A stretch of 64,000 nucleotides of DNA from Paralichthys olivaceus (Eukaryota; Chordata; Actinopteri; Pleuronectiformes; Paralichthyidae), in the NCBI RefSeq assembly GCF_024713975.1, contig NC_091100.1:18788501-18852500 (forward strand), given 5' to 3'. Below, piece by piece: positions 15,067-58,901 of this stretch. The number at the start of each line of letters is the position of its first letter. The stretch's first letter is position 1. The notes beneath the pieces were generated by a model that saw only the letters and a program-made list of their open reading frames with translations, made no database searches and was not told where the DNA came from. The position numbers and the translations under genes are program-made.

Positions 15067-17959
15067 TTACCATAACCGGCGTCCAGTGTAGTTAATTGGG
15101 GCTGTGGGCATCTAGAGAGGGAGACAGAGACACAAAGGCCCATTGAGTCAGGTTTATTGAGTAATTAAGAGAGGTTGACACACACAAAGTGAGTAGTTCT
15201 GCCCAACTTACCGTGCCACCATTCATGACCAGAGCCATCTCAGTGGGTTGGTACACGTGACCTCTGAAGGCTATGCCAGGACGTACACTCCCTTGGCTGC
15301 TGTGGTAAGTTCCACTCCGGAGAGCTGACAGACCAACGAGACACAGCGCACAAGTTTAATGTTTCCCATCTCCAAAATTATAATAATTCCAGCATGTATA
15401 ATACTCACTGTGATAGATGTGCTGTGCTCCTAAGACAATAACACATTATCCTACTGAAGTATGATTTGCCCCACAGCTGGGTAACTCAGAGGCCTTCCAC
15501 ACTCTTTAAATGCAACAAAGATGATTTTAATTGTTACTGTGCCTTAAAAGCTGTAGATTGACATGTTCCAGACTCTCCTGTTAACTTATTGTGCTCGCCG
15601 TTAGCTTTGTTAATGGGTGTGTGGAGATAAAACAGAAGTGCCAAGTGGGACAAGTTTTTTCAGATGCAGCTGATTTTGAAAAAAAAAACAAAAAACTAGA
15701 AAATTTAGTTATTTTGAAAATCCAGGCTCTTTACAGGTTTCCTGATAACATCCTGTTACTATGGGGGGGGGGGTTATTTAATTGAAAATCTAGGCTCTTT
15801 ACCAAATGTACACGTTTTTATTGGTTAGAGTTAAGATATGTGACCGTGAGAGCGAGTTAGAAATGTCTTTTTTTCCATCCAAATCTCTTTTTAAACTTTA
15901 CATTACATCCAATGGGGAAGAGTGAGCTCTGTGCTCTAGCACCAGTCTTCAAACAAATGCACCTAATTCAAAAACTATGAGTCCTATCTGTGAAATGAAA
16001 CACTGTGAGAATCCCAAGACTTCCCTAAACGCACAGATATATTTTTTATTGGTCAGAGTTAAGAATGTGATTACATAGATATTGGCATTGGCATTGAATT
16101 TCCTTTCATTTCCCATCAGATGATTCAAAGCCTTGATCAGCAGCTGAGCATGCTGGGAGTGAATGAAGTGGCACCACCAGCAGGAAACAACAAACAGGTC
16201 GTGTAATGAGGTAAAACCGTCTTGTTGTTCTTTTATGATATAACCACAGAAATATGTATCTTTGAGATACCAAAAAGAGGAAGAGTTATACAGACCGTGG
16301 ACTGACTCAATGAGTAACATTAGCACACTTTATAGCCACTGTAAACCACACAAAAACGTATATCTATATATATACAAACTAGTATCTTGAATCCAAAAAA
16401 GAAGAAAATGAAGTCTTTAAGATTAAGATTAAGATTCCATGTTTTAAAGGAGCAGTGCGTAGGATTTAATGGAATCTAGGGATGGAGTTGCAGAACCTGC
16501 TCCTGACGAAAACTCAATACTTCTGGATTTGAGGTGATTAAACACTAATTGCAGACATTGTATTCCATTTCTGCCAGAATATTCCCCATAAATCCTACAC
16601 ACTGATCCTTAAAATGGAAAATCCAGTTTTGACATCCTGTGTTTTCTTTCCATGGCTCTGGCAAGTATTCCAACAAAAGCTCATTACTCACTAACTCTAC
16701 TGCAGAGATTTTTAGAGACAAGGAGGCTGGAAATTGGCTCACACCACATAATCCATAAGAAATCATCCTTTCAAACTAAAAGTAAATCCTCCCATGCCCT
16801 GCTTACACTGTGTTACATGACTTTCCTCTCTGACTCCATCATTGCCTCCTCCTCAGTCAGCTGTACAAATGTCACCCTCCTGAAGTCTGCTATCCTGGAA
16901 AACTCTATGATTTCTTTCTGCCACCTCCCCCACTCTTTGTTTGTCCCAGTTCCTCATAGTTTAGCTCCTCATCTGTGCTTTTGGCTTCATAATAAATACA
17001 GAGAGCTGCCGTCAAAATGAGTCATAAATCCTCCTGTGGAGAAGCCTGTTTGATCATCATGTATTTCATAAGGTTTAATTGGATTTTTTATTGTGTACAA
17101 TGGCTAGAAGTGAGCAACACTCTGCTGTGAGGAAACCTATAATGCACTTGTGGTAGGGTATTATATATAGTTCAAGTTAAGATGTTGATTTCATTGGTTA
17201 AGGTGTATTTTTATGTAGTTCATAAAATGTGACATGACACAATGTTCATACCAATCAATTAAATAAAAATTTAATTTTCATTCATAATTACATTTAATCT
17301 TTACCTGCACCAAGGACTTAATGCTTTTGTCTGCGTTAGTTTTTCTGGTCACACAAAAACATATGGATGGATTACCATAGAACTTGCTGGAAGGATGTGA
17401 TATTGGTCAAGGAAGAACCCATCAAATTTTGGTGTGGCTCTGGAATGCTTCACTTTGTTTGATATTGTGATTTATGGTGTTTTTCACATTTTCGTTGATT
17501 TCCCACAGAATAAGTCATGGGTCTTAGAGGCTGATATTTATGATTGTGTGCAATTCAGTGCAGACCAAAATACAAATCTGGAGCTAGTGATTTAAAATTT
17601 GTTTTTAACAGGGGACTGTCAGGGTTTAGAAAATCTTAGGTAGTTGTTAACACTCCTGTCAAACGTGTATGGTGAATTTTTTTTTTCCTCTTCACTGTCA
17701 CAGACCAGTGACCTGTCAACCAATCACTGACTGTAGAAATGAATTCATGAAGCATGCTGTCACTGTTTCTTAGGTCTGGAGTTTTTTCAGTCCCTCTGTG
17801 AAAGTTGCTCTTAAAACTCTCAATAGGAGAAGGGACATTTTGAATGTGATCAACACCCCTGGTCACTAATGAAAATTACTGTAAATGAACCAGTTAACCA
17901 AAGACAAACCTTTCATACCTTACCTTTCTTTTTTCTTACACACACATATATCCTTCTCG

Positions 17960-18040
<81 letters not shown>

Positions 18041-19157
18041 TTGGCTTACTTGCACTGTGCTCCTCCATAGAAAAGGCTTGGTTTTCTGGGAAGGGTCGGT
18101 GAGAGCGTGCAGGGAGCTCGTCTCCAAAATGTGGAGGAGGGGACGTGTGACTGGTGTTAAAGAAGTCTTGTGTGTTGGACTGTGGAGGATTTCGGAGACA
18201 CAGGTGCGCCTCTGGAATGGCATGGAACAGCAGCAGGATCCATCCCTGAATAACCAGGGCCACCGCCAGCGCAGGCTCATCCAGCACTTTGAGATCGTTC
18301 TTCCCTCCACCACCAAACCTTTCTCCTTTCCCCTTTCCTCTCAACGCCTGGCTGCCGTAAAGATAAAACCCCAGCCAGGCCACCCACAGCAATGCTGAAG
18401 CCAGACTGGACAGGAAGAGCCACACAGCATTACACTTCCATCTCCGTTTTTCACTCTCTCCTTCTCTGTCTTCTTCACTTCCACCACCTCCTTCGTCCCC
18501 AAACTCTCCTCCACAGAGCACCACCCCCAGAGAAAGCCCCATGGCTATGAGGAGCAGCCCTAGGGTGTAGCTGCATGTCAGCGCAAAGTCCAAAGGTGGA
18601 TATTCGCAGGCTGGGTGACCCTCCCTGACAACTGTCAGCAGGACCCATTCAGCAGAGATGATGCCCTGAACCAAGGCCAAGGCCAGGCCAAGCGCTGCCA
18701 GGGTGCTGCCTGAGGGGCTTGTCTTGCCAGCCACCAGCCTCCTGAGCCTCACACCCTGCACGAGCAAACTGGAGAAGCAGAGGGCAAATAGAGGCCCCCA
18801 GAAGGCCCTGCGGACCACACAGAGCGCCTGGTTCTTCCCCACCAGGAAAGCCAGAGAGATGGAGAAAAGGCCGAGAAGTGTGCCAAGGAGCAGAAGAAGA
18901 GGCCCCATGCCAGAGCGCCTGGCAGCATCGGAAATAGAGCGCAGCTTAACAAGCAGGAGTACAGCGATTACCAAAGAAGTGACACCACCGCTGCAAGCCA
19001 CAGCCTCCAGAACTACACCCCAGACTGACTCCAGGTCACACAGCACTCTGTACGGAGGGTCCACATCCTCACTGCATCCCCGAGGAGGAGAAGAGGGGTG
19101 GGATGTACCATAGCCAATCAGTGATAGGACGCAGATGATGATCAGGCTGACGGCCAT
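15067..19157 (-). CDS. gprc5b: G protein-coupled receptor class C group 5 member B, 3 coding exons
   Basis: GPRC5B is an orphan plasma-membrane receptor with a short extracellular N-terminus. Exons in transcript order: 19157-18050, 15324-15212, 15111-15067; 1266 nt, 421 residues (human about 403). Seen: a signal-peptide-like start (MAVSLIIICVLSLIGYGTS), the N-terminal cysteines of VLCDLESVWGVVLEAVA, seven hydrophobic segments near residues 46-70, 86-107, 119-137, 153-175, 191-214, 243-267 and 294-315, and WILLLFHAIPEAHLC closing TM7. The tail has ENQAFSMEEHSA across the first junction, then VYQPTEMALVMNGGT and a terminal RRLW, all diagnostic of GPRC5B. Gly/acidic residues 219-238 enlarge the third intracellular loop and a Gly/Lys stretch at 271-290 enlarges the last extracellular loop. 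The exon-1 donor (GTAAGC, 18049-18044) is followed almost at once by a (TG)n tract. Reading through that tract gives a false Cys-Val tail. Whether this is the a or b teleost paralogue is unknown. Confidence 0.93.
16442..16614. mobile_element. Complete 173-bp MITE in gprc5b intron
   Basis: Left end ttttaaaggagcagtgcgta and right end tacacactgatccttaaaa form terminal inverted repeats of about 26 bp with few mismatches, both continuing into a taggattta / taaatccta core. The interior is short and noncoding. This is a non-autonomous DNA transposon. A partial relative lies at 12165-12432. Confidence 0.75.
17281..17570 (+). repeat. Dispersed repeat (family X) in gprc5b intron
   Basis: Landmarks are ggtcacacaaaaacatatgg, gaacttgctggaaggatg, ggaagaacccatcaaatttt and ggtgtggctctgg. 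They match the other family X copies in order and spacing. No coding potential is seen. Confidence 0.6.
17963..18039. repeat. (AC)n microsatellite next to gprc5b exon 1
   Basis: About 77 bp of near-perfect AC repeat. On the gprc5b strand it is a (TG)n tract starting about 11 nt after the splice donor of the main coding exon. Confidence 0.95.
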
Positions 19158-19850
19158 CTTAGAAACACAGAAAAAAACAAATTCAGTGATGAGAGACAGA
19201 GAAAGGGTTAAAGGAAATAAAGAGAGGTACATGTCGAGAGAGAGATAAACAAGAGGAGTGACATTGTTGAAGAAGATCCAAAGAGGAGGAAGGCAGAGAG
19301 ATGAATGTAGATATAATTACATTAACTATAATAATGTACAGGGTCTCCATGATGCACGATATACTGCTCAAACAGCAGCCAACAAAACAAACATTACATA
19401 TTATATATCACATTACATAAGCTATATATCCATATTTAAATGTTTCTACCTCTTTCAGATACACACACAAACACACACTCATGTAGTCACAGAACACAAC
19501 TCCTTTTAGCACTGGGCAATAGTTTCCATGGGAACGGGAAACAGCGTGGGCTGACTACATTGCATACTGGGCTTTAGAGAAGTCGAGTTTCAGACCCGAA
19601 AGCACAGAGGAACGCACGACTACGCACACACTATCACACATGCACACACGCACATGCACGCACACACAGTCATGTTTTAATGACTTCAGAGGACACTACA
19701 TTCATTACCTGCAGACTCTAACCATAAAACATGTCCATAGTTTAACATTGTATTATTTATGTCATTGGGGTTCTGCTGTTTTGTGCTCATAAGAAGTCCT
19801 CATAGTGTGACTGTTTAAACAGATTCAGCTCCACACAACATGACACACAC

Positions 19851-24186: not shown

Positions 24187-27100
24187 TCATCTGCGTTTAT
24201 AGACATGCAGGATAGTTTTACATATGGGGCAGGAATGCTCCACATCCTTACAAGCATCCGCAACCAAGGGGATCCAGAAACAAGGCCAGCACCTGGAGTT
24301 GAGGATTATAAAGTCAAAATAATGCTTACTTAGTGTGTGTACCAGTGTGTGTGTGTGTGTGTACGTGTGTGTCTACTCACAAAAAGGCAAAAAGTACACC
24401 ACAGAGCGTCCAGCTGAGCACACCTCTTTTGTACTTGATTATACTGAGAACAGTGTGGCGGCAGCCAGGACATACCATCTGTCCTGGAGCCTCCTTTGGC
24501 AGTTGCTGCACCATAAACATCACTGTAGAAAAAAAAATACTTGTAGGAGACAAATATGTCACTGAAACAACCATGTAAATTCCCCTGAGTACACTGGGTA
24601 TTGCTGTGTGTGAGTAAAGGTACTGGTATTTGAGTGCATGGGAAGCTCAGCAAGGTGGTTAGGTGTTCGACCCATGCGGGTGAAAGTGTTTTTGTGTTTG
24701 TTTATCCGTGGAAATAGACTTAGGTCAATGTTCGGCACGTCTGGAATTAGAAGAGCTGCTGCGAGCTGTTGGTAATTCTGTTTGATCAACTTAAGGACCT
24801 ATTGGTGGCACGCAGGAATAATGTTAATATAATGCTTATACCGACGCTGGCCGTGGAGTATCCTGAACATTGCATTACTGCACCGCACCCAAGGCTGAGA
24901 GCTGTTTAGCACTATACTGTTTAAATCTTCTAATGGGCATTTAAATTGTGTGGGTCTAGTGTGAACTGCTGTTGAAGGGATACTGCAGCAGCAACTAGGA
25001 GGAGGATATCAGAGGACATTTAGGCTAAAAACTTGGTGTAAAAGACACCGTTTCAAGTTGAATTTGAATGTCGGAGCTTACAGACACTTGGATAACAACA
25101 AACGAGCAGTGTGGAGGGATTTTATGGAGTTTCTTTCTGTAGATGTGGTCACCATTTACTTAAATTATAACCATAATAATAACAACCACATAATAATACT
25201 TATTATTATAACCACGTGGCCACAAGGCTCACCTGTGTTTGGATTGACCATATGCCCCTCTCTGTCCAAAATCCCATCTTCATTCTGCAACACTCTCACA
25301 CACACACACCATGAAGAGGCTGAGATTTATTGGTGAGGTCAAATTGTTATTGATAATTATTGGATTTGGCTGCAACGCTGTTTACCCTTGAAACTCCAGA
25401 AGCGTTTTGTGGACTCAAACACTTCACCCACCCCTCCATTGGCATAGGGGTGAGTAGATAATAAGTGAATTTGTATTTTTCCCTTAGCACGTAACACAAA
25501 CTCAAAGCCAGTAACTCAGATCTTGCCGGAAGTTGGAAAAAAAGCCAAACTTAATAAAGCAAACTGTATGAGAAAATCATTGCAAGATTGAATGGTAAAG
25601 GATGACACAACGCAGATAAAGAATGCTCTTAAAGAATTGATTGAATTGTGTGGTGAAGTAAAATGTACATATGAATCTGTATTGGATCTGTTGTCATGTG
25701 ATGAAAGGGGGAAAACATGAAATATTGTTTAAAGCAAAAAGGATGTTTAATGGTGTTTTGCTGATGCAAAATTGTGGGTTTCATGCAAAGCAGTTTAATT
25801 GGAAATGTTACTCTAAATAATAAGGTTTGGAGTGTTGTATATCAAAGCGGTAGAGTGACGTTAATCTAAACATTGTTTATAATGTTTTTAGTGAACACTA
25901 AAGTCAAAGTAAAGTCAAGTAAATTAGAAACCACATATTCAGCACAAGAAGCTGAGGCAGATAAAGCTGCACTTGTTGCTTATGCTTTTAAAATAACTCA
26001 AGCTCTGGAGGAACAGAAGCAACACCGAGGGGAAAAAGAGGGAAGCTTCATTCGGAAACTGAACAAGCTGCATCCACTGGAAAGTTGGCAATATAGCAGG
26101 CCTCTGACCTGAAAAGTTATTCTCATGGTCCCATGCAAGCAAGTATGCAGAGAGAGTCAAATGAAGAGAGACCCTCACCAGGTTGCACAATCTGAGGCTG
26201 TTGTGGGGAGAGATGGTGATCAGGTGGGTGAACTGGATATGAGAAGAAGACATTTAGCTTGAGAAAGATGATTCAAATAGAACAACATTAGAATAAAAGA
26301 GAAATAAGCAGATAACATGAGGGCAGCACAGTGGTGTTCGCTCGCAGCGGATCTCCAGCTGTGTTCTCAGATTTACTTTATACTCGGACATTTGCATTCA
26401 CACATACATGTCCTTGCAGAGGTTCTCCAGAGTTCAGTGCATGTGTGAAAGCAGACCCTCAAAAGAATAAGCGCCACTGATAATGTGTGGAAAATTCCTG
26501 ATGACTGGCAAACTGTTATTGTATTTCTTATTAAATTCTACATAGTTGGACAGTTGGAGAGAGACACTCACCAGGCTGTACATTCTGAGGTTGTTGTAGG
26601 GCGTATGCATATTGGTGATCTGGATGTGGAAAGAAGACATTTAACTTGAGACAGGCAAACCATCTCTGTACTTTTTAAAATTAAATTCTACATATATTTA
26701 CTTTTACTGGGAGACAGTTGGAGAGAGACACTCACCAGGCTGTACATTCTGAGGTTGTTGTAGGGCGTATGCATATTGGTGATCTGGATGTGGAAAGAAG
26801 ACATTTAACTTGAGATAGGCAAACCATCTCTGTACTTTTTATAATTAAATTCTACATATATTTACTTTTACTGGGAGACAGTTGGAGAGAGACACTCACC
26901 AGGCTGTACATTCTGAGGTTGTTGTTGGGCGTACTGGTAACCAGGTTGGTGAACTGGATATGAGAAGAAGACATTTAGCTTGAGAAAGGCTTAAAAACAA
27001 AATAAACACAAGCTCTTACCACATGAATTAAGATGGCAACAATAAATCAAAAGATTAAAATGGCATTATAATAAAATAGAAACAACAGAGAAATGGTAAA

Positions 27101-27235
27101 GATTAAAGTTTGTGGTGTCTTACCAGGATAGACGATAGGCTGAGGAGGGGCTGACGAGGCTGCAATGTCATAGACTGCAAGTGACGTTGCAGGCACATTA
27201 GTCACTGTATAGGTAGGTCCATTGTTCACATTCAT
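24187..27235 (-). CDS. LITAF-domain protein, copy A, 7 coding exons with duplicated Q/P exons
   Basis: LITAF-like proteins are small zinc-binding proteins monotopically anchored on late endosomes and lysosomes. Exons in transcript order: 27235-27124, 26953-26900, 26783-26736, 26619-26572, 26232-26179, 24522-24381, 24292-24187; 564 nt, 187 residues. All junctions up to the LITAF domain are phase 1. The N-terminus (MNVNNGPTYTV) is followed by four related exon-encoded modules ending PQNVQPG or PQIVQPG, then the LITAF domain: VQQLPKEAPGQMVCPGC (first CxxC knuckle), a hydrophobic segment with CGVLFAFLCWPC, and HSCPICKTILHVYKRR (second knuckle) before the stop. The usual membrane-insertion core CCxIPFC is altered to CFWIPLV here. 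The start is the first ATG after the acceptor at 27240. Intron 24293-24380 is only 88 nt and largely CA repeat. It is a sister of the gene at 32360-33741; the symbol (litaf or a litaf-like member) is left open. Confidence 0.85.
24965..25500 (-). mobile_element. Foldback MITE copy, interrupted, in litaf A intron
   Basis: In reverse orientation this matches the element at 49577-50127: 25375-25496 is the complement of its left arm (ctactcaccactatggcaat; gtgtttgagtccacaaaac) and 24974-25140 corresponds to its inner arm (gacacttggat; atatcag..gacattta). The middle is interrupted by the 135-bp sequence at 25212-25348, an apparent nested insertion. It is absent from the equivalent intron of litaf copy B (146 nt), so it inserted after the duplication or was lost from B. 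Confidence 0.65.
25212..25348 (-). repeat. Inverted copy of the 20921-21055 repeat
   Basis: Reads ccacgtggccacaaggctc through accatgaagaggctgaga to tggtgaggtcaa, the reverse complement of 20921-21055 with a few differences. It is embedded inside a MITE. Confidence 0.7.
25531..26112 (+). pseudogene. Degenerate gag-like coding relic in litaf A intron
   Basis: On the strand opposite litaf A, one frame is open with amino-acid-like composition from about 25531 to 25717 apart from a TGA at 25589-25591, then stops at 25718-25720. Coding character continues in a different frame (716 register) to TAA 25818-25820. A further open frame of 79 codons, 25873-26112, is rich in Glu, Lys and Ala and helical in character (QEAEADKAALVAY). 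The broken frames and intronic position argue for a decayed retroelement gag or a similar transposon protein. No motif (zinc knuckle, protease) identifies it. It is not presented as functional. Confidence 0.4.
26551..26963 (-). repeat. Tandem exon duplication, 164-bp unit, within litaf A
   Basis: cagttggagagagacactca occurs at 26551, 26715 and 26879, an exact 164-bp period. Each unit carries one phase-1/phase-1 exon (26572-26619, 26736-26783, 26900-26953) with its acceptor and GTGAGT donor. The first two units are nearly identical over exon and intron, so that step is recent. The third exon is 6 nt longer and resembles the single exon of copy B. A fourth, more diverged member lies at 26179-26232. 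Confidence 0.9.
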
Positions 27236-27329
27236 GATGCCTGTTAAACAGACTAGGGAAAAAAGCTTATAAGGCTCAGTAGAGCACATACCAATGCCCA
27301 ACAGTCCCTATAAATTCAGCCAGGCTGCA

Positions 27330-29863: not shown

Positions 29864-29912
29864 CTTGGTAAGGAGGACCGGAGGGTGTGTGAGAGCCTGT
29901 CACTTGTTCTGT
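29864..29912 (-). other. Inferred 5' noncoding exon of litaf copy A
   Basis: On the minus strand an acceptor-like atcgcag precedes a short exon ending CAAG at a GTAAGC donor (29863-29858). It contains caggctctcacacaccctcc and no ATG. The homologous exon at 36037-36076 in copy B has the same borders but an 8-nt length difference, which fits noncoding use. It would splice to the ATG-bearing exon at 27240. The leader intron is about 2.6 kb. Confidence 0.55.
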
Positions 29913-30300: not shown

Positions 30301-32359
30301 GCCTGATGATAATAGTGGTCTGCAGAAAATCAAAATATCCATCATGAAAGAGTCATATTAAACAAGAGGGTGACGCGGGCTCCTCTGAAGAGAAATACAG
30401 TTCAGAATGTCACTCAGATCATGTGGGCTTAAGAGTCATCAATCATAGATTGTGTGAAAAGCTTGGCTGCCTCTGTTGTTAGGTATGGTCTTATATGTCT
30501 GAAGTTAGTGTGGTTTACTGTCATAGTACTGGCCACTAATTATAGCAAGAATTTAAAATCAGACACCACAAACAAAGGTTAGTGAGTCTGTGTAAACATA
30601 CAGACTATTTTGCTTTCATTTAGATGTAAACATGAATTATTTAACCAATTAGATCCATGGACCATAGCTTCAGTCACTTTTTGCGGCATGCCTCTTGTTT
30701 TTTGCATGTAAATAATGAACAGTGTCATCGGCATATATTTGTATATTAACTGATGGACCCACTAAAGGCAGGTCATTTATGTACAAGCCGATCAGTTCTC
30801 AACAGCAGCACTCTGAAATGGACACTCAACGAAATGCTGTTATCATTAATGATATTAAATACATGTATCTTCCTACCGTGACATTTCAAAATATCTGCTG
30901 TGGACAAGCCTTTTGCTGCCATAACGTCTCCATTTATTCCTAATGATTTGGCCTCTTCCCTACATGTTCCTCTTATTCTTTCCTCATATAACTTCACAAC
31001 CTTCAATGCCAGTATATATGTTTGTTATCAGCACTCCAACCAACATAACTTTAAAAGTAAACTTGAATAATTTCTGCATAAAAGATATTCCCACATTTAT
31101 GTTATCAGGATTCTTGTTATACATTGTCATAAAGCTGTATAGCTTGAAATTTATAGGCAAAAAAACAATATCGTAAATAGATGATGGAAGCATTCTTTTC
31201 ACATACCCCTCTAGATGGCACTGCAAGATTCATTCTAGTGTTGAAGCCACAGACGACAAAGATGGATGCCATGACAGCTCCCCAAGGGTGAAGTAAAAGC
31301 ATCTATACTAGCATCTGGCTGTGGTATAGGTAATAAAAGTACACTTAGAGAACATTTTTGATGAAGATGGTTTGTGTCATTTTAGGTGTTCTTATCACAA
31401 TCATGGACATCCCAAGAGTCAATTTTTCTGGTAAGTTTAGCATTATTATTTTGATGTCATATACTTTTAAAACGGGTTGAAATATCGTTATTGAGAGCTG
31501 AGACTGACTCTGGATTGGTCCAGTATGTGTATAGGTGGGACTTCATCCACCAATCACTAGAGCTCAGACTCTGGTTCCAAACAACGTCATCAGTGCAGGA
31601 TGGCTTCATTTCTCTGTAGTGGGAGGAAGAGGGGATGCGTCATCGATCTTTATACACACATTTTAAAAACGTTAAATGACTTAATAAATGGTACCTCTCA
31701 GTAATAAAGTCGAGACAAAGAATGAAGTTACATTTCATTGAAGATTTATTGGTCATTTATTCATTTTAATAATTACATGGTATAAGCAATGAGTTGTTCT
31801 TATTATTATTGCACCTTGATTAAAATGATTATAATCCCAGTTATTTTATACCGTCAATATATGTTATCTTAGTACTGTGCCACAAACTATGACTCTCTTT
31901 TGGAAAATATTTTTATAGCAGTAAGTGAAATAAATTAAAACATTCAATATGCTGTTAAGATGAAATCAATTTAATATCTTGAGAGAAAAGTGAATAATAG
32001 GACTTTACTTGCACATGCCAAGAAATATCCACTGGATTTAATAAAAAGAAATCCCTTCATTTGTCACTGATGTGTATTATATAGGCACATCAGTCAGGTC
32101 AAGATAAATAATATAATTATGATAAAATATTTTTGACATTTTCACATTACATTTCATAAAAATGATCACACATATAAATCATAAGAAGAAACTGTAGCCT
32201 GAGGCTTGTGTAATATTTAGAGTTAGGGTAATGTAACACAAATAAAAGGGAGTTCAGTGACAGACAGGTTTGGCATCTTTTCAGATGTCTGTTGGGTGAT
32301 AGCTTGTTTTTATACCTTTTTATTTTTTGTTATTTTAGAGTAAAGACGACACTGCTGTT
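30301..32359. other. Spacer between litaf copies A and B
   Basis: AT-rich with no gene supported. It holds a dispersed repeat at 31245-31665 and the start of duplication copy B at about 31205. AATAAA on the minus strand at 32324-32319 lies about 36 nt after the copy B stop and is its best poly(A) candidate. Confidence 0.4.
31245..31665 (+). repeat. Dispersed repeat family Y, copy 1
   Basis: Landmarks in order: acgacaaagatggatgcca, gctgagactgactctggatt, ggacttcatccaccaatcac, ctctggttccaaa, caggatggcttcatttctct. The same order occurs at 48150-48545 and 50860-51345. No coding potential. Confidence 0.55.
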
Positions 32360-33741
<1,382 letters not shown>

Positions 33742-56900: not shown

Positions 56901-57973
56901 TTGATCCACTTTTGGTCCCCACCAACTTTTGAGAAATATCTGGTTATTTGCAGTTATAGCAGTCCATCTAAGCTTGTTTCCTAAAAACAAAAACACAACT
57001 TTGACCAAATGGATATAAACACAATGCCCTCCACTGTGGCTCTTTGAATAGCCTTAATAATGTAAAATTGAGAGCGGTTGACTTTTTTGTCAATTCTGCC
57101 ACATGTACAGGACATAACATTAGAGGCTTTTAAATTCTGATACAGGGTGTAAATATAGACATAAGTACACCACAAGTAACACAAAATATAAGCACTCAAG
57201 CAACATGTAAGTATAAACAACGTTCAATGTAAAAATAGATTAATTGCAAATACTTTATGGCTACTGTGCAGATAATATACAGTTGTGAACAGTGTTGATC
57301 CACAGAATGAGTAAAATAGCTGAATTTATAGTAAAATAGCAGCAGTGACTACAACTCCCTGCGTTTTGACTGGCACGAAGACGCAGAAAGATACACATAG
57401 TTTTTATACCTGGACATCAGAGAAGATGACCACTGGTAGGACCACCACAAAGGACACGGCCCACACAGCTGCGCTCACCACCTTGGCTACACGGGGATGT
57501 CTCCACTTGGTGCTGCGGATCGGATGGACCACAGCCAGGTATCGATCAATGGACATGACCGTCAGACAGAAAATAGACGTGAACTGGTTCATGGAGTCTG
57601 CGGTCATGACCACCCGGCACAGGAACGAACCAAAGGGCCAATATGAGAGCACATTCTGCGTGGTGAGGAAGGGGAGCCCGATGATGTAGAGCTCGTCGGC
57701 CACAGCCAAGTTCAGGATGTAGATGTTGGTGACCGTCTTCATCTTGGCATAGCGCAACACCACGTAGATGGCCAGAGTGTTGCCGGTCAGACCCACCATG
57801 AAGACCGTGAGGGAGATGACCGCAGTCACCAGGGTGCTGCTGCCCTGGAAGGGGACGCTCTGGGTGGACAGGTTGGAGGAGATGTTAAAGAGGCGCGGGT
57901 AAGAAATGAGGAAGGGGCTTGATGCAGCAGAGGAGTTGACGTCTGGTGACAGGGGAGTCCAGTGGGTCTCCAT
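53974..57973 (-). CDS. sstr5: Somatostatin receptor (type 5-like), 4 coding exons
   Basis: Gi/o-coupled rhodopsin-family receptor for somatostatin at the plasma membrane. Exons in transcript order: 57973-57410, 56155-56015, 55839-55567, 54165-53974, all phase 0; 389 residues as drawn. Seen: N-glycosylation sites near N13, N30 and N34; TM2 NLAVADE; TM3 Asp126 in [19 protein letters not shown] at 143-145; Cys119 and Cys194 for the loop disulfide; ICL3 [14 protein letters not shown]6 CWLPFF; TM7 [20 protein letters not shown]. The somatostatin receptor signature in TM7 is intact. Exon 4 gives [13 protein letters not shown] and a hydrophilic tail. Type 5 is favoured by [10 protein letters not shown] and SERKVTRM; several stretches resemble type 3, so subtype confidence is moderate. 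The start is the ATG at 57973 (A at -3, G at +4). The last 16 codons run through a (TG)n tract, so the true 3' end is uncertain. Confidence 0.85.
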
Positions 57974-58901
57974 TGTTGTTTTCAAAAAATAAAGTGGGAA
58001 AATGGTCCCACACAGTCTAGATGTAGATTTGTTCCTCTCTGTGTTCACGGATTTAGAAAACAGTATTCACCTCTACCCTGTTGGTTTCCATGATTTACAC
58101 TGGAACAAATCAGGAGGTGGTGAGTGACCAATCATCACACCAGAGACATCCTCCAATCTGATTTATAGATTGTCTCAATTGTGTGTGCGTAAAAGAGACA
58201 GTGACTCACAGGATGAAAGTGTGCGCTCTGACCACCGCTGAGAACATGGGGACTTCACATACCTGTCGCCTCCTTCGCTTCATCTGCCAAAGAGAGAGTT
58301 GAGCTGCCGTGCGTCCTGCATTCTAACAAAGGAGTTTTCACAGGGAGTCGTATCCGTAATTACGCACGAAAACACGCCGGCCCACGAATGGCGAACACCT
58401 TTAGTGTCGCTGGGTTTTTAATAGCCCTAAATCATTGTCTTAATCCACCTGACTCTATAAGAGCGCATACAATTCATCCGCAGCCCAGTGGCATCGATTG
58501 GAATTGTGCCACAGCTTTTACGCACGCGGCAGATCCGCTCGACTTCAAGCTCTGTTACTGTATCTGAGTTATCAATATGTCCTGTGATGTATTAGGTGAT
58601 TTGATTTGATTTAATTCCATGCATCTCCACTATAAACATCCTAAAATCGCGTATTCACTACACTAATGATATGTTCGCAGATTGTTAACAGGCTTACTTT
58701 AGGAGGCATGAAGAAGTCCAAGTCTGTGTGAACAAATTAAAAATGTGGATCCCCCCCCCACACCAAACTCCTGATGTGTCCGAGCTTCCAATTATTCGCT
58801 GTCCGTGGTGCTGAGCAGTGTCTCGGTAGGCAGCTCCACACGCTCCTTCAACTTTCTACTGCCCACACAGACCTGCTGCTTCTGTGATATGATGTGTCAA
58901 C

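Follow-up and report, generated by a model that had tools for sequence, protein, structure and literature searches.

How did a LITAF-domain gene of the Japanese flounder (Paralichthys olivaceus) come to carry four small, similar exons just in front of its conserved domain, and do these exons, alone or in number, matter for the protein? We analysed a window of 64,000 nucleotides (C8:18788501-18852500); the whole-genome searches covered 588 Mb in 25 contigs. Our preferred reading, to which we assign a probability of roughly 0.8, is that the focal gene multiplied one small symmetric (phase 1-1) exon immediately before the LITAF domain by recent tandem duplication, and that the copies are spliced in varied, predicted combinations.

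Module exons and their predicted use

On the minus strand, the focal gene has four module exons (A to D) placed between a start exon (E1) and two LITAF-domain exons. In the order of transcription, the elements are:

31207..31272, minus strand: first coding exon of isoforms X3 and X5 (MASIFVVCGFNTRMNLAVPSRG); ends approximate, from protein match
29865..29912, minus strand: upstream coding exon of X3 and X5 (TEQVTGSHTPSGPPYQ); ends approximate, from protein match
27124..27252, minus strand: start exon E1, where coding begins at ATG 27235 (window frame); splice sites CCTAG (acceptor) and CTG/GTAAGA (donor); reproduces X3 and X5
26900..26953, minus strand: module exon A, 54 nt, phase 1-1; (V)HQPGYQYAQQQPQNVQP
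26736..26783, minus strand: module exon B, 48 nt, phase 1-1; (D)HQYAYALQQPQNVQP
26572..26619, minus strand: module exon C, 48 nt, phase 1-1; identical to B
26179..26232, minus strand: module exon D, 54 nt, phase 1-1, diverged; (V)HPPDHHLSPQQPQIVQP; missing in X3 and X5
26109..26232, minus strand: extended exon D, 124 nt, in isoform X9; ends the canonical frame
25233..25284, minus strand: exon F, whose 52 nt are not divisible by 3, in isoform X10; canonical-frame stop at its start (..QPE, stop)
24381..24522, minus strand: LITAF-domain exon L1, 3' end in phase 2
24187..24292, minus strand: LITAF-domain exon L2, coding part including the stop

The four module exons are homologous neighbours of 54, 48, 48 and 54 nt, all in phase 1-1, and each is flanked in the window sequence by an AG acceptor and a GT donor, so that the first-pass annotation had placed four phase-1 exons of these lengths correctly. 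Among 585 GT sites (minus strand, 24-34 kb) scored with textbook weights, the donors of A and D rank at percentiles 99.0 and 98.8. Because every exon length is divisible by 3 and every exon is in phase 1, any number of modules can be spliced without disturbing the LITAF frame, and the earlier argument that gain or loss keeps the frame holds. Translation of the spliced window exons yields, for a hypothetical chain A+B+C+D, 187 residues in frame with the LITAF domain. The modules had been described as ending in QPG; this G comes from reading on into the intron, the residues at the spliced junctions being QP/D, QP/D, QP/V and QP/V. The LITAF domain itself (PF10601) scores 73.9 bits in P0001 against a curated cut-off of 23.8, spans profile positions 2-70 of 70, and was significant in all five proteins scanned.

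The RefSeq isoforms are automatic predictions, of which four cluster representatives were seen: X3 (P0001, representing 7 sequences), X5 (P0002), X10 (P0003, representing 3) and X9 (P0004, representing 2). With this proviso, the duplicated exons occur in predicted isoforms that can be reproduced from the window. Over their full length X9 and X10 are exactly equal to the spliced exons, as are X3 and X5 from the window ATG onwards; the first 38 residues of X3 and X5 match the two upstream exons at 100%. Predicted X3 contains A, B and C, predicted X5 contains A and one of B or C, and both lack D. Predicted X9 and X10 contain A, one of B or C, and D, followed by extended D (X9) or exon F (X10). 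B and C are too similar for short reads to distinguish.

That all four exons enter the protein, as had been assumed, does not agree with these predictions: the canonical frame is kept in the two visible isoforms that skip D and lost in the two that include it, and no four-module protein is found among the four visible representatives. A four-module form may exist, since P0001, P0003 and P0004 represent further sequences. Mutually exclusive exon use does not fit the predicted isoforms, in which modules are used jointly (A, B and C in X3; A, B or C, and D in X9 and X10).

Age and origin of the copies

Three repeat elements underlie the central part of the array:

26549..26712, no strand assigned: 164-bp repeat unit containing exon C
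26713..26876, no strand assigned: 164-bp repeat unit containing exon B; 2/164 positions differ from the exon-C unit
26877..26925, no strand assigned: partial third unit, exact over 49 nt, terminating within exon A

Exons B and C are identical at 48/48 nt, in agreement with the first reading of their modules, and the enclosing units at 162/164. Tandem Repeats Finder reports a period of 164 with 2.7 copies and a score of 753 against a reporting minimum of 40, and the repeat is therefore not due to chance. Of the three units once thought to share an exact 164-bp period, two stand (at 162/164), whereas the third is exact for 49 nt only. The array is recent as far as the duplication of B and C is concerned, their units differing at 2/164 positions. 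D is diverged and does not share the 164-bp period, being 339 bp away from C. The 40 bases upstream of D are nearly like those upstream of A (37/38 aligned bases), the exons themselves only at 42/54 positions. D gives the impression of an earlier copy, now diverging and frequently omitted. Nine of the 12 changes between A and D fall in amino-acid-changing codons and three in silent ones (raw counts, no rate test).

An alignment at the junctions revealed that the B-C intron consists of the downstream flank of C through GTTTGCC, continued by the upstream flank of A from GCC, a structure that agrees with tandem duplication at a short shared sequence. As to the order and mechanism of events, we infer that an older tandem duplication of the exon with its flanks would have produced the A/B pair, with its junction at the short shared GCC, and that a later unequal exchange between 164-bp units would have given rise to B and C.

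Modules elsewhere in the flounder genome and in other fishes

Upstream of the focal gene on the same strand lies a relative, which carries one module, as had been noted at the outset (32.36-33.74 kb):

32363..33741, minus strand: sister LITAF gene, matching database protein P0022; one module exon, at about 32884-32937

The module of the sister gene (32884-32937) has PHVVQP in the window where P0022 has PHIVQP, a difference of one amino acid between two flounder sequences. Between its exons, the sister gene also holds a GGATGAG-type minisatellite (33170-33317) and a 68-base GT repeat (32507-32574). Further away in the window, minus-strand ORFs with receptor domains are present at 17916-19232 (7tm_3, 81.6 bits) and 57407-58048 (7tm_1, 137.1 bits); scans of the window for Rfam families (gathering threshold) and tRNAs gave no match.

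A six-frame module search of the flounder genome (E up to 10) returned five places, four at the focal locus and one weak (E 2.5). As this search missed the known module of the sister gene, diverged copies may still be present elsewhere. With the LITAF domain profile, 21 exon-level matches came up across the genome, some at the focal locus and the rest at further loci on C5, C8 and C21. Nine module-bearing proteins match the LITAF-domain exons and some PPYPG-type start exons of the other LITAF loci (L014-L022), where no module array was seen in a search with E up to 0.01, a setting that can miss an 18-residue exon.

For a wider comparison, 170 related proteins were pooled from three protein searches, one of which listed 120 of its 220 matches and confined scoring to the candidates with most words in common. 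A profile of the module, built from 39 of these proteins (match cut-off 3 bits or more), found one match in 85 of the 170, two or more in 14 and none in 71; it undercounts modules, because it misses the flounder's own 48-nt ones. From the 14 proteins with multiple matches we left out P0015, P0018, P0090 and P0132 (partial, non-adjacent or weak matches, or a longer unit); with P0001, included manually, the set comprises 11. Cutting the units by hand gave four each in P0088 and P0122, versus three profile matches, some of them partial.

According to this hand reading, adjacent modules are found in 11 proteins of 11 species, the flounder and ten other fish, all of which we take to be percomorphs. 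Four modules were counted in Atlantic halibut, Perca flavescens, Etheostoma spectabile and Salarias fasciatus, three in the flounder (X3), an Epinephelus and a Mastacembelus, and two in a Lycodopsis, Dicentrarchus labrax, Labrus bergylta and Ophioblennius macclurei. Module number thus differs among related fish proteins, as the first-pass annotation had anticipated for species. The nearest neighbour of the 33 hand-cut modules belongs to the same protein in 22 cases and to another protein in 8, with 3 ties, a pattern that agrees with separate expansions or with sequence exchange within genes. Five of the eight percid modules have their nearest neighbour across the two species or are tied, as if most percid modules were common to both.

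The repeats of the other species, known there from protein, are presumably exon arrays as well. In a phase-1 boundary test on the 11 proteins, the internal boundary residues are GNN-coded in 22/22 cases, but the control offset gives 19/22; the first unit begins with I or S in 4 of the 11, a misfit with an upstream exon ending in G. In stickleback, the proteins P0124, P0128, P0132, P0133, P0137, P0141, P0142 and P0146 carry one to three copies of a unit of about 42 residues before the LITAF domain; all these forms come from one species and may be isoforms, paralogues or alleles.

A far-reaching proposal would be a percomorph hot spot, at which the exon before the LITAF domain multiplies recurrently, separately between species and probably between individuals, splicing then selecting among the copies; the membrane-trafficking protein would thereby carry a fast-evolving linker of variable length, with length or content under selection. 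We consider this unlikely.

Possible consequences of the array

On the preferred reading of a multiplied symmetric exon, each included copy would extend a disordered Gln/Tyr/Pro-rich linker before the LITAF domain by 16-18 residues. The modules are rich in Gln and Tyr. In the predicted structure model, built on a shallow alignment of 19 sequences and with a whole-protein mean pLDDT of 53.1, the module region has pLDDT values of 43-49 per 10-residue block and no secondary structure, and it is accordingly predicted to be disordered. The effect of the array is uncertain and possibly neutral.

Neutral growth, in which symmetric exons come and go in a disordered linker with little consequence and their alternative splicing is noise, has in our view close to an even chance of being correct. 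The changes between A and D display no visible constraint in raw counts, the module region is predicted to lack order, and the N-termini of the relatives vary in length and composition. What speaks against such neutral growth is that the module core is recognisable in 99 of the 170 related proteins, by a profile trained on 39 of them.

Unlikely, by comparison, is adaptive tuning, in which the number of modules would set the strength of partner binding through Pro-rich motifs. Precedent comes from human LITAF, for which two studies report that N-terminal PPxY motifs mediate binding of ITCH and NEDD4 (PMC3033906, PMC5142333), and the occurrence of adjacent repeats in the 11 species, flounder included, would also suit this idea. 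However, a motif scan found no PPxY, [LP]PxY or P(S/T)AP in the focal N-terminus (as the four-module N-terminus and, for PPxY and [LP]PxY, also in X3 and X10), which hence lacks the N-terminal PPxY for WW domains that characterises a human-type LITAF adaptor. The focal N-terminus also lacks PPYPG, a motif that 103 of 121 proteins possess (the four focal isoforms being counted among the 121), and A versus D again offers no visible constraint. As human LITAF's PPxY and P(S/T)AP have no counterpart here, the original suggestion that known Pro-rich motifs recruit partners is without basis at this locus. A near-neutral change of length seems more likely than tuning.

It is quite unlikely that B and C are a single locus written twice by the assembly. 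The 162/164 identity of the units would be expected from such an error, and the B-to-C junction of X3 does not count independently against it, because the four isoform records appear to have been predicted on the same assembly; if supported by reads, however, this junction would be impossible to obtain from one copy. Near-identical adjacent modules occur in proteins of other species as well, and the two positions that differ between the units weaken an assembly artefact as the main reading.

The proteins X9 and X10 are exact translations that start at a second ATG (27171), run in frame +1 through A, B or C, and D, and return to the LITAF frame by way of extended D or F (52 nt). We rejected as very improbable that the array is thereby read in a second frame to give a different LITAF N-terminus: among 20,000 synonymous reshuffles, the +1 frame stays open in 23% with uniform and 34% with weighted codons, so that its openness lies within chance and is no evidence of use, and the frame of ATG 27235, located upstream in E1, ends in F or extended D, as it would in decay-bound transcripts.

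With regard to known systems, a literature search found no paper joining LITAF with "exon duplication", and the titles and abstract openings among the matches listed contain no account of this LITAF exon array. Ivanov and Pervouchine 2022 (PMC9013439), in their abstract, link tandem exon duplications to mutually exclusive use of one exon. The flounder gene resembles the cases described there in its neighbouring duplicated exons, compatible phase and varied splicing, but differs from them in that predicted X3 joins three module exons. With human LITAF/SIMPLE, as portrayed in the studies already cited (PMC3033906, PMC5142333), it shares a mostly flexible N-terminus before a zinc-binding LITAF domain, although the flounder N-terminus has repeated Gln/Tyr-rich modules in place of PPxY and P(S/T)AP. 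In zebrafish, larval intestine is reported to show enrichment of the LITAF-like gene si:ch211-202h22.9 (PMC9600436).

The array of Atlantic halibut (P0005) is similar in that four adjacent 18-residue modules precede the LITAF domain. Its N-terminus, however, resembles that of the flounder sister gene (it keeps PAPPYPG), and three of its four modules are mutually identical and differ from flounder B and C; for these reasons the halibut and flounder expansions look separate. Flounder module A, on the other hand, is nearest to a halibut module (0.83, versus 0.72 within flounder). Growth by tandem exon duplication is already known, and the flounder LITAF array is a further case, a clean and recent example of a disordered region lengthened through duplication of a frame-neutral exon, in which older and younger copies sit next to each other. 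Together with the scattered repeats of the module in other fishes, this makes it a usable case for weighing neutral against selected growth.
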